From: a virus
Length of the DNA stretch: 22,693 nucleotides
Strand: one strand, 5' to 3'
IMG/VR virus record: IMGVR_UViG_3300025413_000136
Location: 1 to 22,693 of that record
Each line of letters opens with the position of its first letter. Within the stretch, counting starts at the first letter, position 1. The notes beneath the pieces were generated by a model that was not told where the DNA came from, searched no databases, and saw only the letters and a program-made list of their open reading frames with translations. Position numbers and translations under genes: made by a program. This document shows, in pieces, positions 4,407 through 19,977 of this stretch.

Positions 4407-5267
4407 TTAAATCTCCAATAAAATGTTAGGGTTCCAGCCAGTGTCCTCACTGTAACCATCGTTTTCGTAACCACGTGGGTTGCATACAACACGAGTCTCG
4501 CCAATCTTGTAATCAAACGGATGATGAGTATGCCCATGTGTCCACAAGACAATCTGTGGGTGATCCAAAATGAACTCACTCAAGTCACTGTGATATCCAC
4601 CGTTCATCAATGTGTCGCTGCCATACATTGGGTGGCAACTTTGAAAACTAGGACTATGATGTCCAACTACAACACACTTCTTGTCCTTGTTCTCACTGAG
4701 TACATGACGGAAGTATTGCAGAGTCTTATCATGTCTATGAGCAACGTCTAACGCACTCATAGGAGCATAGCTTCTGTAATCATTACGAATGATACGGAAG
4801 TCGTTCATCATACTTTCAATGGCATGCATGGTCAATGGGTCACGTTTGTTCATGTTAGTCCAAAGTGTTCCGCCCATAAACACTACATCATCGATGACCT
4901 TAGTGTCTTGTTCCAGCATATACACGTTGGGAAACTTAGCGCATTCGTCACGCATATAATCAATGCCAGCATAAAACTTGCCATTGTAGAATTCATGATT
5001 GCCCATGATATAAACTACATGGGGAAACTGAAAACTGCAACGCTTCAAAAAGTCACGGAACCGCTGAGCACGTTCTTGCCTACGACCCAAACCAGTACCA
5101 TTAGCAATAGCCCGTTGATCAGCTGTATTGCTAGGCTCAGGATGATCGTGGAGATCCTGGGCGATCATAATATCGCCACCAAGGATCAGTACATCATAGT
5201 TCTGATCATTTTGAATGTTGACGTCACTGAACTCTAAATGGAGATCACTGACCAGTTTGATTCTCAT
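4407..5267 (-). CDS. Calcineurin-like metallophosphoesterase
   Basis: This protein has all metal-site motifs of the calcineurin-like phosphoesterase fold, in order: DLH (Asp8, His10), GGD (30-32), GNHE (89-92), GHH (202-204) and GHTH (245-248). These bind a di-metal centre and hydrolyse phosphomono- or phosphodiesters. I chose the ATG at 5267 (MRIKLVSDLHLEF, 286 residues) rather than 5315 because beta-strand 1 normally begins at the very N-terminus in this family. This start gives a 23-base overlap with the upstream gene. The substrate could be a nucleotide, RNA 2',3'-cyclic end or protein phosphate. A second, shorter family member lies at 21015. Confidence 0.9.
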   Translation of the reverse strand: MRIKLVSDLHLEFSDVNIQNDQNYDVLILGGDIMIAQDLHDHPEPSNTADQRAIANGTGLGRRQERAQRFRDFLKRCSFQFPHVVYIMGNHEFYNGKFYAGIDYMRDECAKFPNVYMLEQDTKVIDDVVFMGGTLWTNMNKRDPLTMHAIESMMNDFRIIRNDYRSYAPMSALDVAHRHDKTLQYFRHVLSENKDKKCVVVGHHSPSFQSCHPMYGSDTLMNGGYHSDLSEFILDHPQIVLWTHGHTHHPFDYKIGETRVVCNPRGYENDGYSEDTGWNPNILLEI

Positions 5268-5904
5268 TTTCGTTTTCCATGTTCTCCAAAGACTGTTCCC
5301 ACATTCTTTGGTCAAAAGATTTATCTACTGGGAATTTTGGTAACCCGTTTTGCTCTGCCCATTGTTTGGCATCTTCTTTATTATACTCGCCTTTTTCAAC
5401 TTTGTCAATAAATGATTTGAGCATTTTATTCATCCAATCATTGAAAGTCATGTTTTCGGCATGAGCACATTTGAAAGCAAACATCAACAAGTCATCTGGC
5501 AAGTCCAAAGGAATGCTTATGTCTGTGGAATAGTCTTCACCTGCCTTAATAGCAAGACACTTAGAAATAAAGTCGTCGTCGACTTCTAAATCAACATACT
5601 CAACATCGTCCCATGCTTCGTTTAAGCTGATTCCACGAGCTTCAGCTTCTTTACGATGCTTGGCCTGCTTATTCTCAGCAATCATACGATAAGCACGTTT
5701 GTTGGTATAGTCACATACTTCTACTTCATATACCTTTTGTGTCTTAGTACTGAATACAATATTAAAACTCCAGCCGCCTTTATCGTGAAGACCATTCCAA
5801 CTAGACAGTTGGTAGGCATTAGGTCCATAGCATGACCAGGTATAATCACCACCTTCGGTGATTCGATAGTCTACCAACTCCATCCATTCTTTCATTGTAA
5901 TCAT
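5245..5904 (-). CDS. Conserved phage hypothetical with possible ribbon-helix-helix segment
   Basis: This 219-residue soluble protein has an N-terminal aromatic domain (WMELVDYRITEGGDYTWSCY, then strands such as GWSFNIVFSTKTQKVYEVEV) and an acidic middle (EYVDLEVDDDF). Around residues 127-165 it has a stretch of the form ISIPLDLPDDLLMFAF, helix, NMTFNDWMNKML, which resembles a ribbon-helix-helix unit. The tail is acidic and repetitive (ENENENQ). The stop lies inside the metallophosphoesterase start region, and the start overlaps the previous stop as ATGA (5901-5904). DNA binding is a weak inference; no enzyme motif is seen. Confidence 0.75.
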   Translation of the reverse strand: MITMKEWMELVDYRITEGGDYTWSCYGPNAYQLSSWNGLHDKGGWSFNIVFSTKTQKVYEVEVCDYTNKRAYRMIAENKQAKHRKEAEARGISLNEAWDDVEYVDLEVDDDFISKCLAIKAGEDYSTDISIPLDLPDDLLMFAFKCAHAENMTFNDWMNKMLKSFIDKVEKGEYNKEDAKQWAEQNGLPKFPVDKSFDQRMWEQSLENMENENENQTGQ

Positions 5905-10748: not shown

Positions 10749-11525
10749 AACATTGTCAAAAAGATGTATAGAATCTTTTTCAATTAATTCATTTAATTCT
10801 CGGGTAGGAATTCCAGTTATACGTATTTGGCGGCGTCTACTTGTGACCAATGGAACTCCGTGGAAAAAGTAATCATTAAACATGTAAACTTTATCGTTTA
10901 CTTTATACGGAATACCTGTATCGGAGTCTAATGAATAAAAGATAGGCGAGCCGCCGTCGGTAAGATTTAAGGTAATACTTATAAAACCTGAATTCCATAA
11001 TTTGTTAGAATTCAAACTACCACCCTTTTCTTTTAAAAAGTTTAGGTTATCTCTGTGTATACTTGCAAAAGTATTAGGTGCTAAACTAACACAACGTATT
11101 CCTATTAATTTAGAAAACGGCAATGATTTAATCCAATCGGTTATTTTTAAATTTTCATATTCGGGTTTAAAAAAATATTCTCCTGAATTTAATAATGTAT
11201 TACGTAGTGCAACAGATCCTAATTTGCTTGCTTCTTTATAATTTGTGTTATCGGTTTGTAATTCTAACATACTAGTAGCCATCCACGAAGCTACTCCTCG
11301 TTCGATAATAGTAGAAGAATCGATAGCCTTTACATTGCATGTATCGTATACATCAGTTGGAACCATATTCCATTTTTCATTAATAGGTTTAGTAAGTTCC
11401 CAACTCCGAATGCCGTTGGCAATTGCACGACTTCTAGGCAAAATATATTCGTCATATTCTTTTACAAATAAATCTTGATCGAAATCTATGTTAAGTTTAG
11501 CATAGATAATATTTTCTAATTTCAT
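10737..11525 (-). CDS. 2OG-Fe(II) oxygenase-like protein
   Basis: This 262-residue protein has His157-x-Asp159 (FASIHRDNLNF), His222 (NDYFFHGVPLV) and a basic strand RRRQIRITG (230-238), whose Arg would bind 2-oxoglutarate. Strands GFISITLNLTDGGSPIFY and KVYMFND fill the jelly roll. The N-terminal half (ERGVASWMATSMLEL) is not recognised. The ATG overlaps the stop of the AsnB-like ATPase gene as ATGA, so an oxygenase and an ATP-dependent ligase-type enzyme are made together. A perfect late box (11539-11546) lies inside the end of that upstream gene. It is clearly different in sequence from the oxygenases at 9993, 12456, 18584 and 19171. Confidence 0.75.
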   Translation of the reverse strand: MKLENIIYAKLNIDFDQDLFVKEYDEYILPRSRAIANGIRSWELTKPINEKWNMVPTDVYDTCNVKAIDSSTIIERGVASWMATSMLELQTDNTNYKEASKLGSVALRNTLLNSGEYFFKPEYENLKITDWIKSLPFSKLIGIRCVSLAPNTFASIHRDNLNFLKEKGGSLNSNKLWNSGFISITLNLTDGGSPIFYSLDSDTGIPYKVNDKVYMFNDYFFHGVPLVTSRRRQIRITGIPTRELNELIEKDSIHLFDNVLIT

Positions 11526-12406
11526 AATGGACTTAAATTATTTATAGCCTGCTCATAAGTTATTTGCCATTCACCTATGAAGTATGGAAAAGTTGCCAGT
11601 ATACGTTCACGCATTGGTATGTTAATTTTGGCAAGTTTTTCAAATCCTGTGTATTTGTCTCTTATTTCAAATTCAGGATAATGTTTTTTGTAAAATGAGT
11701 GTTTAAATTTATCGTTGCTCCAGTAGTCTGTTTTGTCATTGATCAAATCCAAAGTCATTTCATCTTTAAGACAACTTAATATTTGTTCAGGACTAAATTG
11801 ATGAAAACCAGGAATGCCAGGTATTTGATTAAAAATCCAATATTTGTTCCAACTACAGATACGTTCTTTTTCTTGAAAGCACCATTTGCCTAAATATTTT
11901 ACTACTACAGGTTCACCTTGACCTAGTATAGTAAAATTTGGTATTTGTTTTGCTAACCATAAACTTGTAGCACGTTCGCAGGTAGTTTGATAAGATTTTA
12001 CAGTATTTTCAAACTCAGAAGATAATAAGTATTCTTCCACATCTAGATCATAAAAATCTATATCTATATTATGATACTGACAAAATTTTATAGCATAATC
12101 TATATCGTGTTTGTTCTTGCCGTCTTTAAAACGCATAACTGCGGCACGAAATGGAATACCGGCATCTAATAATGCCCATGCAGTTATTTCGCTATCTGCT
12201 CCTCCACTAAGCATTACACTAATATCATCAGTGGCAATATCTGCAATATACTTGGCGGCATATATATTTGCATCTCTAAAATCCATCACAGCATCAGCAC
12301 GACCATAATCGCAAGTAAATGTCTCAGTAGGACTTGTTCGATTTTTAAACCAGCCAGATTCTTTATAGCCAAATTTAAAATGATTGTTTTTAGTAAATTC
12401 AAACAT
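11522..12406 (-). CDS. AsnB-type PP-loop ATPase lacking a glutaminase domain
   Basis: This 294-residue protein has the PP-loop SGGADS (67-72) after strand DISVML, then AWALLDAGIPFRAAVMRF and YHNIDIDFYDLDVEEYL, the alternating strand/helix order of the asparagine-synthetase C-terminal domain. A later QTTCERATSLWLA...GQGEPVV block aligns with the same region of the gene at 16466, the apparent paralogue. Such enzymes adenylate a carboxylate and couple it to an amine. The N-terminal Ntn glutaminase domain with Cys2 is absent, so ammonia or another amine must come from elsewhere. It is driven by a perfect late box (12435-12442) with an AAAGG ribosome site, and ends overlapping the oxygenase start. 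Confidence 0.82.
   Translation of the reverse strand: MFEFTKNNHFKFGYKESGWFKNRTSPTETFTCDYGRADAVMDFRDANIYAAKYIADIATDDISVMLSGGADSEITAWALLDAGIPFRAAVMRFKDGKNKHDIDYAIKFCQYHNIDIDFYDLDVEEYLLSSEFENTVKSYQTTCERATSLWLAKQIPNFTILGQGEPVVVKYLGKWCFQEKERICSWNKYWIFNQIPGIPGFHQFSPEQILSCLKDEMTLDLINDKTDYWSNDKFKHSFYKKHYPEFEIRDKYTGFEKLAKINIPMRERILATFPYFIGEWQITYEQAINNLSPL
11539..11546 (-). promoter_or_regulatory. Perfect T4-type late promoter box inside the AsnB-like gene
   Basis: Minus strand TATAAATA, 13 bases upstream of the oxygenase ATG at 11525, within the last codons of the 11522 gene. It could give the oxygenase its own late transcript. Confidence 0.5.
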
Positions 12407-14978: not shown

Positions 14979-16439
14979 TTATTGCCATTTTCTAGCATAT
15001 ATTGTATTAAACATAAATCTAGAATTAACTACTTGCACATCCCTAAATCCTATATCTGCTAATGTATCTAAATACCAATTTAACGGTTTAGTGACTAGAA
15101 CTCCTACGATTGCTTGTTTTTTCTTAGCAATATCATCTTGCGATATACCGTTATTAAATTTAAATTTGTGATATAATTGTTCAGTTGTATCGTCGTGATT
15201 CATTTTGTCCGTTAAAATTAATATCCCCCCAGGAGCAAGATTATTGTAAATATTTTGTAGATAATCCTTGCGTTCATGTATAAAATGTAAAGTCCAATTG
15301 GCTAGTACTACATCCCATGTTTGTTTTGGAAATACATTACTTAAAATAATTTGATTTTTATTACTGCTTCTTTCATACATGTGCTGGCTATTTTCTACAC
15401 CAAATATATTAGTGTAGCCTAACTTTAGAAATTTATCTACTGTGTATCCTAAAGCACTGCCCACATCTATCAATTTAATGGACTTGTCATTTTTATAAAT
15501 TTCTGTAACATAGTCCACGCACAGATTTAATACTCTATGATAATCCGGAATATGAGTCTCGGCTTCTTTTTGAAATCTATTAGCCACTTGTTCGTCAAAC
15601 ACCCATGGAGTCGACTTGATATACGATTCGGGTTTTACTATCATAGGCATTAAAGATTCTTTATCTTGAGATAATACTGCATCAGTAATAGTTTTAATAG
15701 GACTGATTGCGTTTTTAAAAAACCTCATCATGTATCTTGAGGGAAGAATCACTTTAGATCCTGGACGTTTAATTGCAGTAATATACGTATCGTGAGTATT
15801 AGGATCTTCTAATGGCCTAGGATATAATAGTCCTTCAGTACATCCAAATCCAAAAACATTTAAAAATTTACTTATAGCCGCAGGACTAGCTCTAACACCA
15901 ATACCGTTATATGCCAAATTTAATTCTGTAGAATTTATATGAACATTGTTTATAACATCTATTACAGGACTATCTTTGTGCAACATATGGTGAGGATAGC
16001 TACCATCTAACACAATAACATGATTGCAAATTCTCGACACTTTTTTAAGCAAACTATAGGTGTCCATAAAAGCATATATGACTCCTAACAAGATTACAAC
16101 ATCGTATGTTTTATTCTGTGTATCTAAGAAAGTTTCTATATTGCTATTAACTATATCAAAATTTGTCCAATAATTTCCTAATAGTCTCTGACTAATGTCA
16201 CACATTTCTTTTTGTATTTCCACTCCGGTATAATGTTTAGCACCAAAAGACAAACACCAGTGTCCGGTCGCTCCTATACAACTACCGAGATCTAAAACTG
16301 TAGCATCTTTTAAAAGATTAGAAGGTAATAGTACTTCATGTCTTCTATCTAGAGTTTCGGCTGTAATAGGTACATGTTCTCTGTGTCTTCGAGAATCTTC
16401 GTTTATAAATTCTGGATAATTGATAAAAAAATTGCTCAT
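14979..16439 (-). CDS. Fused double SAM-dependent enzyme: N-terminal methyltransferase and C-terminal CmoA-like domain
   Basis: This 486-residue protein holds two class I SAM domains. The first has motif I VLDLGSCIG (48-56), GVEIQ (72-76) and LLGVIYAFMD, vaguely like CmoB (compare its MGVLYH). The second (about 281-486) begins FDEQVANRF, has LIDVGSALG (323-331), GVENSQHM, then NWTLHFIHERKDYLQNIYNN, LAPGGILILTDKM and YHKFKFNNGISQDDIAKKK. These follow CmoA closely and in order (NFTLQFL, LNPGGALVLSEKF, HHDFKRANGYSELEISQKR). CmoA makes carboxy-SAM from SAM and prephenate; CmoB uses it to carboxymethylate tRNA. CmoA Arg199, said to bind the carboxylate, is Lys441 here. The ATG follows a late-like box (TATAAGTA) by four bases. 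Confidence 0.82.
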   Translation of the reverse strand: MSNFFINYPEFINEDSRRHREHVPITAETLDRRHEVLLPSNLLKDATVLDLGSCIGATGHWCLSFGAKHYTGVEIQKEMCDISQRLLGNYWTNFDIVNSNIETFLDTQNKTYDVVILLGVIYAFMDTYSLLKKVSRICNHVIVLDGSYPHHMLHKDSPVIDVINNVHINSTELNLAYNGIGVRASPAAISKFLNVFGFGCTEGLLYPRPLEDPNTHDTYITAIKRPGSKVILPSRYMMRFFKNAISPIKTITDAVLSQDKESLMPMIVKPESYIKSTPWVFDEQVANRFQKEAETHIPDYHRVLNLCVDYVTEIYKNDKSIKLIDVGSALGYTVDKFLKLGYTNIFGVENSQHMYERSSNKNQIILSNVFPKQTWDVVLANWTLHFIHERKDYLQNIYNNLAPGGILILTDKMNHDDTTEQLYHKFKFNNGISQDDIAKKKQAIVGVLVTKPLNWYLDTLADIGFRDVQVVNSRFMFNTIYARKWQ

Positions 16440-16465: not shown

Positions 16466-17386
16466 ATGATAAATTTTACACATAAAAATCATTTAAGATA
16501 TGCTATCGATAATCGACCATTTGGTTATAGAGAAAATTCTTTAGAAAAATATACAGTTAGTCTTGGAACAATTGATCCGGAGCGTTATTCTAAAAGCAAT
16601 TATATAGACGAACTACACAGAACAGCCAATCTTATTAGACAAGATTTAGGCAATGATTTGGTAGTGTTTCTATCCGGCGGAACTGACAGTGAAATTGTAG
16701 TTAGGAATTTTATAGCCACTGGCTTTAAACCTCGCTGTGTTACTATTAGATTTAAAAATGATTATAATGCATCTGATGTAGCAGAAGCACAAACACTTGC
16801 CGATGAGCTAGGAGTTGAACTAGACTTTATAGACTTCGATGTTACTGATTTTTATTACTCAGGAGAAGCAACCGAGTTTGGTAAATCTATACAATGCACA
16901 CAAGTAACTTACTTGATGGTTTATAAAAGCATATTGGATTTAGGCTTGCCCGCAGTAATGGGCGGCGAAGTATTGCTTACTAGAAAAGTTGAACTTGATA
17001 AGTTCTATTGGTATTATACATTCCGCGAAAACGAAGATGCCAGTGCTATGCGTTTTACAAACAAATACAATATACCTTTAGTTAATGAATGGTTTAGCTA
17101 TACACCCGAGTTGTTGTTGCATTATTTAGAAGATAGTGATATACAAAAATTAGTAACAACTAGACACAATTATAAGTTAACCAGTGTAAGTAGTAAGAAC
17201 GCAATACTTGGAAGATTGTATCCAGGCATCAGACAAAGAAAAAAGACACACGGTTTTGAAAACCTGTTGGCTTTTAATTACGAAGCTTACAATGCTATCG
17301 GTGCAGAACAGATCAAACGTTTAGAATCAAGTCTAGATGGTGTAGAGATTTCTACAGCTATTCAACAGTTAAAGGGATTGCAATGA
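16466..17386 (+). CDS. AsnB-type PP-loop ATPase lacking a glutaminase domain (paralogue of 11522)
   Basis: This 306-residue protein has PP-loop SGGTDS (70-75) after strand DLVVFL, then IATGFKPRCVTIRF and ELGVELDFIDFDVTDFY, parallel to the same segments of the gene at 11522. Further shared landmarks are the N-terminal NHL/NHF strand (FTHKNHLRY) and the Q-C-T...GLPAVMGGE block, expected around the acyl-adenylate pocket. No Ntn glutaminase domain or Cys2 is present. It leads a five-gene operon in which every junction is a one- to four-base stop/start overlap, so it is probably made in step with the QueC-like, GNAT-like and two oxygenase proteins. ATP-dependent amide formation is the best guess. 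Confidence 0.82.
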   Translation: MINFTHKNHLRYAIDNRPFGYRENSLEKYTVSLGTIDPERYSKSNYIDELHRTANLIRQDLGNDLVVFLSGGTDSEIVVRNFIATGFKPRCVTIRFKNDYNASDVAEAQTLADELGVELDFIDFDVTDFYYSGEATEFGKSIQCTQVTYLMVYKSILDLGLPAVMGGEVLLTRKVELDKFYWYYTFRENEDASAMRFTNKYNIPLVNEWFSYTPELLLHYLEDSDIQKLVTTRHNYKLTSVSSKNAILGRLYPGIRQRKKTHGFENLLAFNYEAYNAIGAEQIKRLESSLDGVEISTAIQQLKGLQ

Positions 17387-17997
17387 AACTTGTAGTAGGA
17401 GATCCTCCTAGACATATAGAAATATTTTTACCTCCCCATAAAACAAAACTTGGAGTGTTTGTAAGTGGGGGCATGGACAGCGCAATATTATATTATTTGT
17501 TATTGAAAAAAAAGTTTGATACAAATTCTAATCATGAAATAACTCCGTTGTCCATGCACAGGAAAGAAGGATCTAGATATTTTGCAAATCTAGTAACAGC
17601 TTATGTACAACAACAGTTTGGATTGCCTGTTACTAGTCCTATCATTGTTGGGGATAATACATTACCAGAAGAACAACAGGTTAAGTCTGGTGTAGATGAA
17701 GCATATCGGTTAGGATATGAAAGAGTTTATGTGGGGTTAATTGAACAGTTGCCACAGCACATGATCAATTGGCAACCTATACCCTATCAAGAAGGACAGC
17801 GATTCAGAACTCCATTAAAAACTCTAGACAAGAGTTATATAGTTGAACTAATAAAACAATTTAATCAGGAAGCCTTATTTCATATTACTCATAGTTGTAG
17901 TGTACTAGAACTAGGTAGATGCAATGAATGTAATGGATGCAATGAAAGAAGCTGGGGGTTTGCTCAGTTAGGAATTAAAGACCCGGGTACATTATGA
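17383..17997 (+). CDS. QueC-like PP-loop enzyme (7-cyano-7-deazaguanine synthase family)
   Basis: This 204-residue protein has PP-loop SGGMDS (28-33) and a C-terminal cysteine cluster SCSVLELGRCNECNGC (Cys172, 180, 183, 186), followed by NERSWGFAQLGIKDP. That is the QueC signature (SC..., CGxCxxCxxRxxGFxxAGxxDP), whose cysteines bind zinc. TPLKTLDKSYIVELI precedes it, as in QueC (PLxxLxKxEI). QueC converts carboxy-deazaguanine to preQ0 through an amide, using ATP and ammonia. The protein is a little shorter than usual QueC (about 220-230) and the middle is divergent. No FolE, QueD or QueE is in the window, so the substrate must come from the host or from elsewhere in the genome, or the chemistry differs. 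Confidence 0.78.
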   Translation: MKLVVGDPPRHIEIFLPPHKTKLGVFVSGGMDSAILYYLLLKKKFDTNSNHEITPLSMHRKEGSRYFANLVTAYVQQQFGLPVTSPIIVGDNTLPEEQQVKSGVDEAYRLGYERVYVGLIEQLPQHMINWQPIPYQEGQRFRTPLKTLDKSYIVELIKQFNQEALFHITHSCSVLELGRCNECNGCNERSWGFAQLGIKDPGTL

Positions 17998-18584
17998 AAA
18001 TCGAAAAGTTAAACGAAACTCATGCGGACGCTATTCGGCATTTATTTTATATGCCAAAGTTTATGGGTGTTGATCCTTCTCAAAATTATTTTGTAGGCAA
18101 AGAAGAAGATTTTGTAGACTACTATCACAAAATGTTTTGCCAAACGTATTTGTCTGAGTTACAAAACTATCACGCATTTGGCGCAGTAGACGACGATGGT
18201 CAAGTACAAGCTCTGATAGCATTTTATGAATCAAATGAAGATCCTAGTTGGTACTGGAGTCATGTGCGTAGCAAAGATTCTAAACAAATTAAATTAATTT
18301 TAGATGCAGTAGTGGCTTACAATGAATCAAACAATCGTTATAAATTCTACAGCATGTTTCCTTTAAAGTATGATGCACTATACAGAAGACTGGCATTCAG
18401 TAAACAGACCAGCGAACGCTATGGAGCCTTTAACGAGTTTTATATTAAGGCCAGAGAAAAATGTGTATACAATCTTCCTTGGCAAATATTATATAATCGT
18501 ACACTAGTTCCTGTAGATACTGTAGTCCGTTGTACATATCTCAAGCCTGAATACAGAACACTCACGTCAGGCGGAAATTTGTAA
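17994..18584 (+). CDS. GNAT-like acyltransferase (divergent)
   Basis: This 196-residue protein starts MKIEKLNETHADAIRHLF, a strand-helix opening common in GNATs. It continues with YHAFGAVDDDGQVQALIAFYE (two strands), a helix KQIKLILDAVVAYNES, YKFYSMFPLKYDALYRRLAF and a closing strand YGAFNEFYIKA. The fold order fits GNAT, but no clear acetyl-CoA pyrophosphate loop is seen, and a C-terminal extension (LPWQILYNRTLVPVDT) is added. The ATG overlaps the QueC-like stop as ATGA, and its stop shares one base with the next start (TAATG). It probably belongs to the same pathway as its operon partners. Confidence 0.62.
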   Translation: MKIEKLNETHADAIRHLFYMPKFMGVDPSQNYFVGKEEDFVDYYHKMFCQTYLSELQNYHAFGAVDDDGQVQALIAFYESNEDPSWYWSHVRSKDSKQIKLILDAVVAYNESNNRYKFYSMFPLKYDALYRRLAFSKQTSERYGAFNEFYIKAREKCVYNLPWQILYNRTLVPVDTVVRCTYLKPEYRTLTSGGNL

Positions 18585-19174
18585 TGTACTCTCCAGTAAA
18601 GTTATGTCCGTTTGAAAACAATTATTTAAAGCTAGGAACTAATATAGACCTAGCTAACAAACTACAGGATTTTTTTAAAGATCCTGCAAATGATTATCTT
18701 TGGAAAATTTCTACAACAAGACAACGTGTTACACAAGCTCTTAGACATACAGAGTGTGTAATGCTAAGACAACTAAAAGTAAACACTCGTCCTAAAAACA
18801 CTTTGGAATTTAATCAAATTATGGAAACAGTAGATACTGATGCTAGTTCTATTTCATTATTTAAAGATACAGTCAAATGGATGGAAAGTTGTTTCAATGA
18901 TGCTAATGTAGAATGGGGTCGTATTTTCTTTAGTAATCATCATGCTAGTACACAAATAGATCTACACACAGATGAAGGCGCATACTTCAGCTATTATGAT
19001 AGGTTTCATTTTGTTGTGCAATCAGAAGGTGATAATATATTTCATATAAGAGATGAAGATGTGCGTCTAGAGCGCGGATCATTCTACTGGGTAAATAACC
19101 ATGTGCCACATTGGCTAGCAAATAACTCTACCGTGGACAGAATTAATCTAATTGCAGATGCAAGACTAACATGA
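18584..19174 (+). CDS. Aspartyl/asparaginyl hydroxylase-like 2OG-Fe(II) oxygenase
   Basis: The 196-residue protein is nearly all jelly roll. His128-x-Asp130 (DLHTDEGAYF), strands YDRFHFVVQSEG and NIFHIRDEDV, LERGSFYWVNN, then His176 (HVPHWLANN) and Arg186 (VDRINLIAD) form the expected Fe and 2-oxoglutarate site. This spacing and the VxHWxxN-x-D-R-I end are close to aspartyl/asparaginyl beta-hydroxylase domains in bacteria and phages. It is the fourth gene of its operon, with single-base or ATGA overlaps at each end, and directly precedes a TauD-type oxygenase, so two consecutive oxidations are possible. Substrate not readable. Confidence 0.8.
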   Translation: MYSPVKLCPFENNYLKLGTNIDLANKLQDFFKDPANDYLWKISTTRQRVTQALRHTECVMLRQLKVNTRPKNTLEFNQIMETVDTDASSISLFKDTVKWMESCFNDANVEWGRIFFSNHHASTQIDLHTDEGAYFSYYDRFHFVVQSEGDNIFHIRDEDVRLERGSFYWVNNHVPHWLANNSTVDRINLIADARLT

Positions 19175-19977
19175 TAGAAGAATTTTTTAATCAGCCGGGC
19201 GAGTATTGGCGAGATTTATTATACAAGAAAAAATTGCTAGTATTTAAAAACATGCAATTTTCTAAATTAGACTACGTAAAGTTTTGTAGTGTATTTGGAC
19301 GATTATGGGAAGCACAAGATTATCGTAGCAGTAGAGAACGTGTAGAAGCAGTAATCGACGGAAACAATTTTCATGTTATTAGTCCTATGAGTAATTTAAT
19401 TGCTCCCCGCATAGGACAACAAGAAATGCCTTGGCATGCAGATATCCCAAATCATAAAAATAATCCCTTTCCTATACGAACTATATGGATGGTTAAAAAT
19501 CCCAATCCAGAATCAGGCTTAACATCTTGGTTAAACATAGAAGATGGTTTTGATATGTTGCCTGAAGATCTAAAACTACAGGCCGAAAGAATAAAAATTG
19601 TACAGCAGAGTTGGTGGATACCAGGCACTAGTATACAAGAATATGACTTTATTAAAACACATCCTGTTACTGGTAGGAAGTCTCTCAGGTTAAACTATTT
19701 TTGTGAGCCAGATAAAAATGTAAACGATGCATGGATTAAAAATGTAATAGTCGACGGACAACTATTAGATCCCCGTGAAACACTATTGCCCTATTATAAT
19801 TTTTTATTGAGCAAACCAGAATTGTTATACACTCATAAATGGGAAACATACGACATTATAGTCTATGACAATTGGTCGTTTGTCCATAGTCGAACTCCAC
19901 TAATATTTGACAGCGCATTAGAACGATTAATGTATCGCACTAACATAGATCACGTAGTCAAAAAAATAGACCCCTAA
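19171..19977 (+). CDS. TauD/TfdA-type 2OG-Fe(II) dioxygenase
   Basis: The 268-residue protein has the TauD/TfdA layout: His89-x-Asp91 (MPWHADIPNH), then RTIWMVKNPNPESGLTSW (the threonine/strand region that holds 2-oxoglutarate), a helical insert (DLKLQAERIKIVQQ), HPVTGRKSLRLNY and the C-terminal YDNWSFVHSRTPL (His239) with ERLMYRTNI (Arg252 or Arg256). TauD family members oxidise taurine, herbicides, carnitine precursors and clavam intermediates. It is the last gene of the five-gene operon. Its stop codon lies in the loop of the terminator hairpin at 19961-19987. Family assignment is solid, substrate unknown. Confidence 0.85.
   Translation: MIEEFFNQPGEYWRDLLYKKKLLVFKNMQFSKLDYVKFCSVFGRLWEAQDYRSSRERVEAVIDGNNFHVISPMSNLIAPRIGQQEMPWHADIPNHKNNPFPIRTIWMVKNPNPESGLTSWLNIEDGFDMLPEDLKLQAERIKIVQQSWWIPGTSIQEYDFIKTHPVTGRKSLRLNYFCEPDKNVNDAWIKNVIVDGQLLDPRETLLPYYNFLLSKPELLYTHKWETYDIIVYDNWSFVHSRTPLIFDSALERLMYRTNIDHVVKKIDP

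Follow-up and report, generated by a model that had tools for sequence, protein, structure and literature searches.

Cap9 of type IV CBASS acts on 7-carboxy-7-deazaguanine (CDG), and the reaction of QatC, a QueC-family protein of ~400 aa with extensions that lies beside qatA, qatB, and qatD, is to our knowledge still unproven. Alanine substitution of Y35 (within the YxQxHxxE motif), R99 (VPxRN), Y131 (YPDC), or Y189 (within the zinc region) inactivates E. coli QueC (PMC13329287), and in YPDC the Y and D correspond to residues that read deazaguanine in Cap9 (PMC13279940). QatC has lost the canonical recognition motifs and kept the four-cysteine site (PMC13329287, PMC13279940). A 2026 survey of the QueC superfamily predicted that branches without the canonical signature lack preQ0 synthesis, QatC being the sole one of them tested (PMC13329287). 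Phages with deazaguanine in their DNA encode QueC (phiSM, SLUR26, Rosebush type, and CP220) or Gat-QueC (9g), accompanied in some by FolE, QueD, and QueE, and dADG is reported to take the place of all guanine in Campylobacter phage CP220 (cited in PMC8306585). Outside phages, the front end of tubercidin synthesis in Streptomyces joins the activities of FolE, QueD, and QueE to that of TubE, a CDG-specific phosphoribosyltransferase (PMC6112128).

Here we describe QueC* (a name used here), a divergent QueC-family PP-loop ATPase of 204 aa, encoded on the plus strand with an ATG start at positions 17383-17997 of a 22,693-base stretch of viral DNA (IMG/VR record IMGVR_UViG_3300025413_000136, positions 1-22,693), which we call the window. 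QueC* shares with canonical QueC (TIGR00364) the PP-loop fold, SGGxDS, a four-cysteine tail followed by R..GF...DP, and a conserved lysine, but it is without YxQxHxxE, VPxRN, YPDC, and the tyrosine after the first cysteine, and it is shorter in the middle. The closest solved fold is that of Cap9 (PDB 9NTO), which has a similar minimal length; Cap9, however, has the deazaguanine-reading Y and D (PMC13279940) and an adjoining CD-NTase, and QueC* has neither. Motif loss with retention of the cysteines recalls QatC, from which QueC* differs in its length of ~205 aa and in having no qat-type neighbors. Like the enzymes of the deazaguanine phages, QueC* is phage-encoded and accompanied in some genomes by FolE, QueD, and QueE, but the phage QueC and Gat-QueC proteins inspected have the canonical motifs (CP220 QueC keeps VPFRN, FPDC, and SCY), whereas QueC* forms a separate branch.

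Results

A QueC-family gene in a five-gene operon

QueC* is the second of five translationally coupled genes (16466-19977) with start-stop overlaps of 1-4 nt. The first gene (16466-17386, plus strand) overlaps QueC* by 4 nt and encodes a PP-loop ATPase with an SGGTDSE loop. A first-pass annotation of the window had called this protein AsnB-like; it is indeed a PP-loop ATPase, but its matches to Asn_synthase (E 9.8e-4) and QueC (E 5e-4) lie below every Pfam cut-off, and MnmA, beta-lactam synthetase, LarE, and AsnB are comparable in fold searches, leaving it with no family assignment. The end of QueC* is overlapped by a coupled gene (17994-18584, plus strand) whose product, earlier described as GNAT-like, has no match in Pfam, PHROG, or NCBIfam, and whose homologues among the loci of QueC* relatives are confined to L008, L012, and L013. 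The two oxygenases that had been named as partners are borne out: an aspartyl/asparaginyl beta-hydroxylase-like 2OG oxygenase (18584-19174, plus strand; PF05118, Asp_Arg_Hydrox, E 2.6e-8) and a TauD-like 2OG oxygenase (19171-19977, plus strand; PF02668, E 6.5e-18).

The SGGMDS pyrophosphate-binding loop (residues 28-33; 17464-17481, plus strand), the four-cysteine site C172-x7-C180-x2-C183-x2-C186 (17896-17940, plus strand), and the C-terminal tail R189-x2-GF...G-x2-DP that follows it are exactly as first annotated. An alignment of 38 diverged members has 19 invariant columns that include all four cysteines; both SGGxDSAxLYY and the four-cysteine pattern are present in 38/38. Codon-position differences between QueC* and its homologue in L012 (0.33/0.24/0.50) follow the pattern of purifying selection, and since the changes fall mostly at third codon positions, QueC* is a working gene. 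Family matches, invariant columns, and this codon pattern rule out a chance ORF: 17383-17997 is a genuine gene.

Elsewhere in the window, a gene at 11522-12406 (minus strand) belongs to the same PP-loop family as 16466-17386 (plus strand); the two are 27% identical, and each adjoins oxygenase-like genes. This family comprises 11 proteins across the loci, has no glutaminase domain, and shows weak structural similarity to MnmA, beta-lactam synthetase, LarE, and AsnB. A tandem double methyltransferase of 486 aa (14979-16439, minus strand) contains two Methyltransf_11/12-type domains, the C-terminal half matching, with E 1.3e-46, a PHROG annotated as tRNA methyltransferase.

QueC* is a strongly divergent QueC superfamily member

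Pfam QueC (PF06508) matches QueC* with E 1.3e-9 (38.4 bits, cut-off 22) in an alignment that covers residues 136-196 only, and the family is also annotated as QueC by PHROG. Compared as profiles, QueC* (38 relatives) and canonical QueC align over 176 columns and the whole length (99% probability, E 5.6e-18). The AlphaFold2 model (pLDDT 92.7) finds Cap9 (9NTO) as its best PDB match (E 9.8e-7, 21% identity), with weaker matches to NcsA, TtuA, and LarE, and phage QueC and Gat-QueC as its best viral matches; TM scores with Cap9 and phage QueC are 0.5-0.58. Membership in the QueC superfamily extends over the full length of QueC*, which is nonetheless strongly divergent, in keeping with the first-pass annotation. 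By score and by tree it lies outside canonical QueC: it reaches 27 bits against the equivalog TIGR00364, for which the cut-off is 150.3, and long branches separate the two groups (support 83 and 91) in a tree where the QueC* branch is partly resolved and takes in a cousin family on a long branch.

Cousin four-cysteine PP-loop proteins of 245-288 aa (SGGADS ... CGKCFWC) occur at L202:937-1674 (minus strand), L203:898-1764 (minus strand), and L204:967-1707 (plus strand), where they adjoin radical SAM/SPASM-type genes in QueE-bearing phages. On a 345-kb phage contig, L006:9968-11176 encodes a QueC* extended at its C-terminus by a further domain of ~195 aa; the Pfam match covers the QueC part only.

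The recognition part of QueC* is rebuilt

The first-pass annotation had pointed to the substrate pocket, and comparison with true QueC finds the known CDG-contacting residues missing. VPxRN is present in 0/38 QueC* members and in 14/14 of the QueC comparison set, and the tyrosine after the first zinc cysteine (Cys-Tyr) is likewise found in 0/38. No recognizable YPDC occurs among the 38 members, a loose Y-x-D being present in three at no conserved position; the segment that replaces YPDC contains I-E and a conserved H126. Loose matches to Y/F-x-Q/C are seen in 9/38 members, again without a conserved position. Across the 38-member alignment the family conserves R60, S64, Q99, Y116, H126, P144, K150, and H170, of which K150 and P144 correspond in the profile alignment to the conserved K and P of QueC. 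With the recognition motifs lost and other residues conserved in their stead, the pocket has been rebuilt in its recognition part, whereas the ATP loop and cysteines are kept.

QueC* is phage-specific and has variable neighbors

Relatives of QueC* were found on 57 viral contigs and one 3.6-kb MAG contig, and none was found at E<=1e-5 in 50,697 records of isolated phages. A weak match in Vibrio phage GR11A was rejected as a canonical QueC with all motifs. QueC* is a phage-specific branch that occurs almost only in large freshwater-type phages.

The same-strand gene directly upstream of QueC* encodes IscU in eight loci, a methyltransferase-like protein in six, a metallophosphatase in five, and a PP-loop ATPase in two. 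At L005:2108-3425, overlapping IscU, QueC*, and IscA genes lie behind UvsE-like and superoxide dismutase-like genes. In ~5/59 loci QueC* is linked to the PP-loop/oxygenase block seen in the window, in some of them (L012 and L013) in opposite orientation, so the window operon is not a conserved pathway, and we rejected functional coupling to the oxygenase operon as a family trait. The amide/oxygenase operon of the first-pass annotation therefore holds as five coupled genes in the window but not as the context of the family. Across 59 loci there was no conserved partner gene and no adjacent CD-NTase; neighbors that start with Met-Gly, sought as acceptors for Cap9-like chemistry, were not enriched near QueC* (3/330 versus a background of 27/1215), and PADLOC returned mainly its generic QueC model.

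At L020:2250-2483, an acyl carrier protein-like gene begins 2 nt past QueC*, and fatty acid desaturase-like genes follow QueC* in L042, L044, and L046.

CDG supply genes are widespread in these phages

FolE, QueD, and QueE are absent from the 22.7-kb window, as first reported, but this holds for the window only. Contigs of QueC* relatives carry FolE (7/25), QueD (11/25), and QueE (8/49), and all three are encoded by 4/4 contigs of more than 200 kb (G002, G003, G011, and G015), the QueE of G003 being weak by score and judged by eye as QueE-like (L121). Six of the nine QueC* contigs above 100 kb have all three genes, one has FolE and QueD, one QueD, and one none; G009 (177 kb) is without FolE, QueD, and QueE. 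Because every contig above 200 kb encodes the full set, the simplest explanation for the missing genes is that the window covers no more than a small piece of the genome. L008 is 99-100% identical to the right end of the window, and L136 (IMGVR_UViG_3300025426_000985), which bears QueE and comes from the metagenome that also yielded L008, could belong to the same phage.

Full-length canonical QueC was not found in the contigs of QueC* relatives, where the other matches are N-terminal parts of PP-loop ATPases, with the exception of G007. That contig, which also carries QueC*, encodes at L311:3997-4596 (minus strand) a second, different divergent four-cysteine QueC-like protein of 199 aa. In the four contigs above 200 kb, QueC* is the only over-cut-off match to the four-cysteine half of QueC. 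Contigs selected for QueE contained a QueC-family member over threshold in 0/22 cases, and the QueC* profile detected distant cousins only, in three of them; the FolE-QueD-QueE cassette thus does not need QueC*. We rejected, as a general rule, the idea that QueC* simply replaces QueC in QueE phages, since QueC is also missing from those that have no QueC*. A FolE or QueD gene occurs within ~8 kb of QueC* in 3/59 loci, which by a rough estimate is not above chance; a flap exonuclease clade-marker control returned mostly short contigs and was unusable. FolE-QueD-QueE is widespread among these phages and in most cases has no QueC with it; QueC* itself is accessory. With the cassette widespread without QueC and linkage near chance, the connection between QueC* and CDG is plausible, not proof of a pathway.

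A phosphoribosyltransferase accompanies the cassette

A phosphoribosyltransferase (PF00156) stands alongside FolE and QueE in most loci examined; it is present in 9/9 large contigs selected for QueE and in 7/18 QueC* contigs. The isolate Synechococcus phage BUCT-ZZ01, a cyanophage, has consecutive genes for QueE, the phosphoribosyltransferase (UTS52039.1), a small protein, QueD, and FolE (ON615601.1, 69843-72623; L210), and no QueC was found in it. Cassettes of FolE, phosphoribosyltransferase, QueD, and QueE also occur at L102:3743-12972 (phosphoribosyltransferase at 4868-5395) and L106:6978-15505 and in L108, L139, L155, L176, and L193, most of them with no QueC over threshold.

A DpdA-like transglycosylase, which the first-pass annotation had suggested seeking, was searched for in the relatives, the window's genome being incomplete, with models that detect the DpdA of phage 9g. 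None was found in QueC* relatives by phrog_887 (0/28) or by phrog_7068 with phage 9g as the positive control (0/26). A PF01702 (TGT) result of 0/25 was discarded because that model is blind to phage 9g DpdA, and the PHROG models were used instead. The phage cassette, with no detectable DpdA, resembles the tubercidin front end, which has the same four activities. This suggests that cassette phages may build deazaguanine nucleotides instead of swapping bases in DNA. Our literature search, which covered few subscription papers, found no account of dCDG in phages or of deazaguanine nucleotide building by phages.

Discussion

We propose that QueC* is very probably an ATP-dependent, acid-activating enzyme, a reaction type that we take from the chemistry of the QueC family. 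As an N-type ATP-pyrophosphatase, it would adenylate a carboxylate with ATP, and ammonia or another amine would attack the adenylate to give an amide, possibly a nitrile, while the four cysteines would hold a structural metal. Our main reading, to which we give a probability of roughly 0.45, is that the substrate is CDG or a CDG nucleotide. CDG would come from FolE, QueD, and QueE that the phage itself encodes in another part of its genome, and the product would be 7-amido- or 7-cyano-7-deazaguanine, for phage DNA or host tRNA. The QueC profile match, the Cap9 and phage QueC folds, K150 and P144, and the CDG genes of large relatives make this plausible. The loss of the recognition motifs, QueC missing from 22 of 22 QueE-selected contigs, linkage close to chance, G009 with none of the genes, and the second four-cysteine protein of G007 count against it. 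The first-pass annotation had offered a phage that borrows substrate from distant genes or an enzyme with a new substrate, and both readings are possible.

A substrate other than deazaguanine is a tenable, if tentative, alternative, in which QueC* would serve as an amide or other acyl synthetase of hypervariable phage tailoring islands. Such islands are rich in PP-loop ATPases, 2OG oxygenases, acetyltransferases, and methyltransferases, and the neighbors of QueC* include PP-loop ATPases, 2OG oxygenases, a desaturase, an acyl carrier protein, and IscU/IscA. Consistent with this idea, every known CDG-recognition residue is gone, the branch stands apart from canonical QueC, and related phages carry other divergent four-cysteine PP-loop proteins beside radical SAM genes. 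However, with no partner shared by the whole family, nothing points to one particular alternative pathway, and the C-terminal half and fold of QueC* are closest to the CDG-using QueC and Cap9.

Within the CDG reading, a substrate at the nucleotide level seems unlikely, although it would explain the rebuilt pocket. The phosphoribosyltransferase would turn CDG into its ribonucleotide, as TubE does, QueC* would amidate the carboxylate, and the deoxy form would enter DNA via the polymerase, without DpdA.

We consider it quite improbable that QueC* is a ligase of the Cap9/QatC type that puts deazaguanine on the N-terminus of a phage or host protein. Cap9 is the best PDB fold match and similarly small, and QatC is also without the canonical motifs (PMC13329287, PMC13279940), but the Y and D kept in Cap9 are missing here, no partner protein is conserved, Met-Gly neighbors are at no excess, and the PADLOC hits were mainly to a generic model. 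Very improbable, too, is a sulfur or Fe-S enzyme whose cysteines hold an iron-sulfur cluster and which thiolates tRNA or a cofactor, despite the eight loci with IscU directly upstream, the IscU-QueC*-IscA arrangement of L005, and the weaker NcsA, TtuA, and LarE folds. LarE reportedly has a three-cysteine pattern, whereas the C-x(5-9)-C-x2-C-x2-C tail of QueC* is the zinc pattern of QueC; most loci have no IscU nearby, and a role in supplying QueE or other Fe-S proteins is the simpler account of IscU and IscA. An orthodox QueC that supplies preQ0 for queuosine boosting or dPreQ0 is scarcely credible, the Pfam and PHROG annotations notwithstanding, given the shortfall against the equivalog and the missing essential residues.

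QueC* adds another branch without the canonical signature to the QueC family, one that is confined to phages and stands, in the genomes of large relatives, alongside the genes of CDG supply. It bears on whether deazaguanine can still be accommodated by a rebuilt QueC pocket. On a question left by the Campylobacter dADG phages, how a phage could come by deazaguanine DNA, the cassette of FolE, phosphoribosyltransferase, QueD, and QueE, with no DpdA detected, leads to the hypothesis that some phages make it through nucleotide synthesis.
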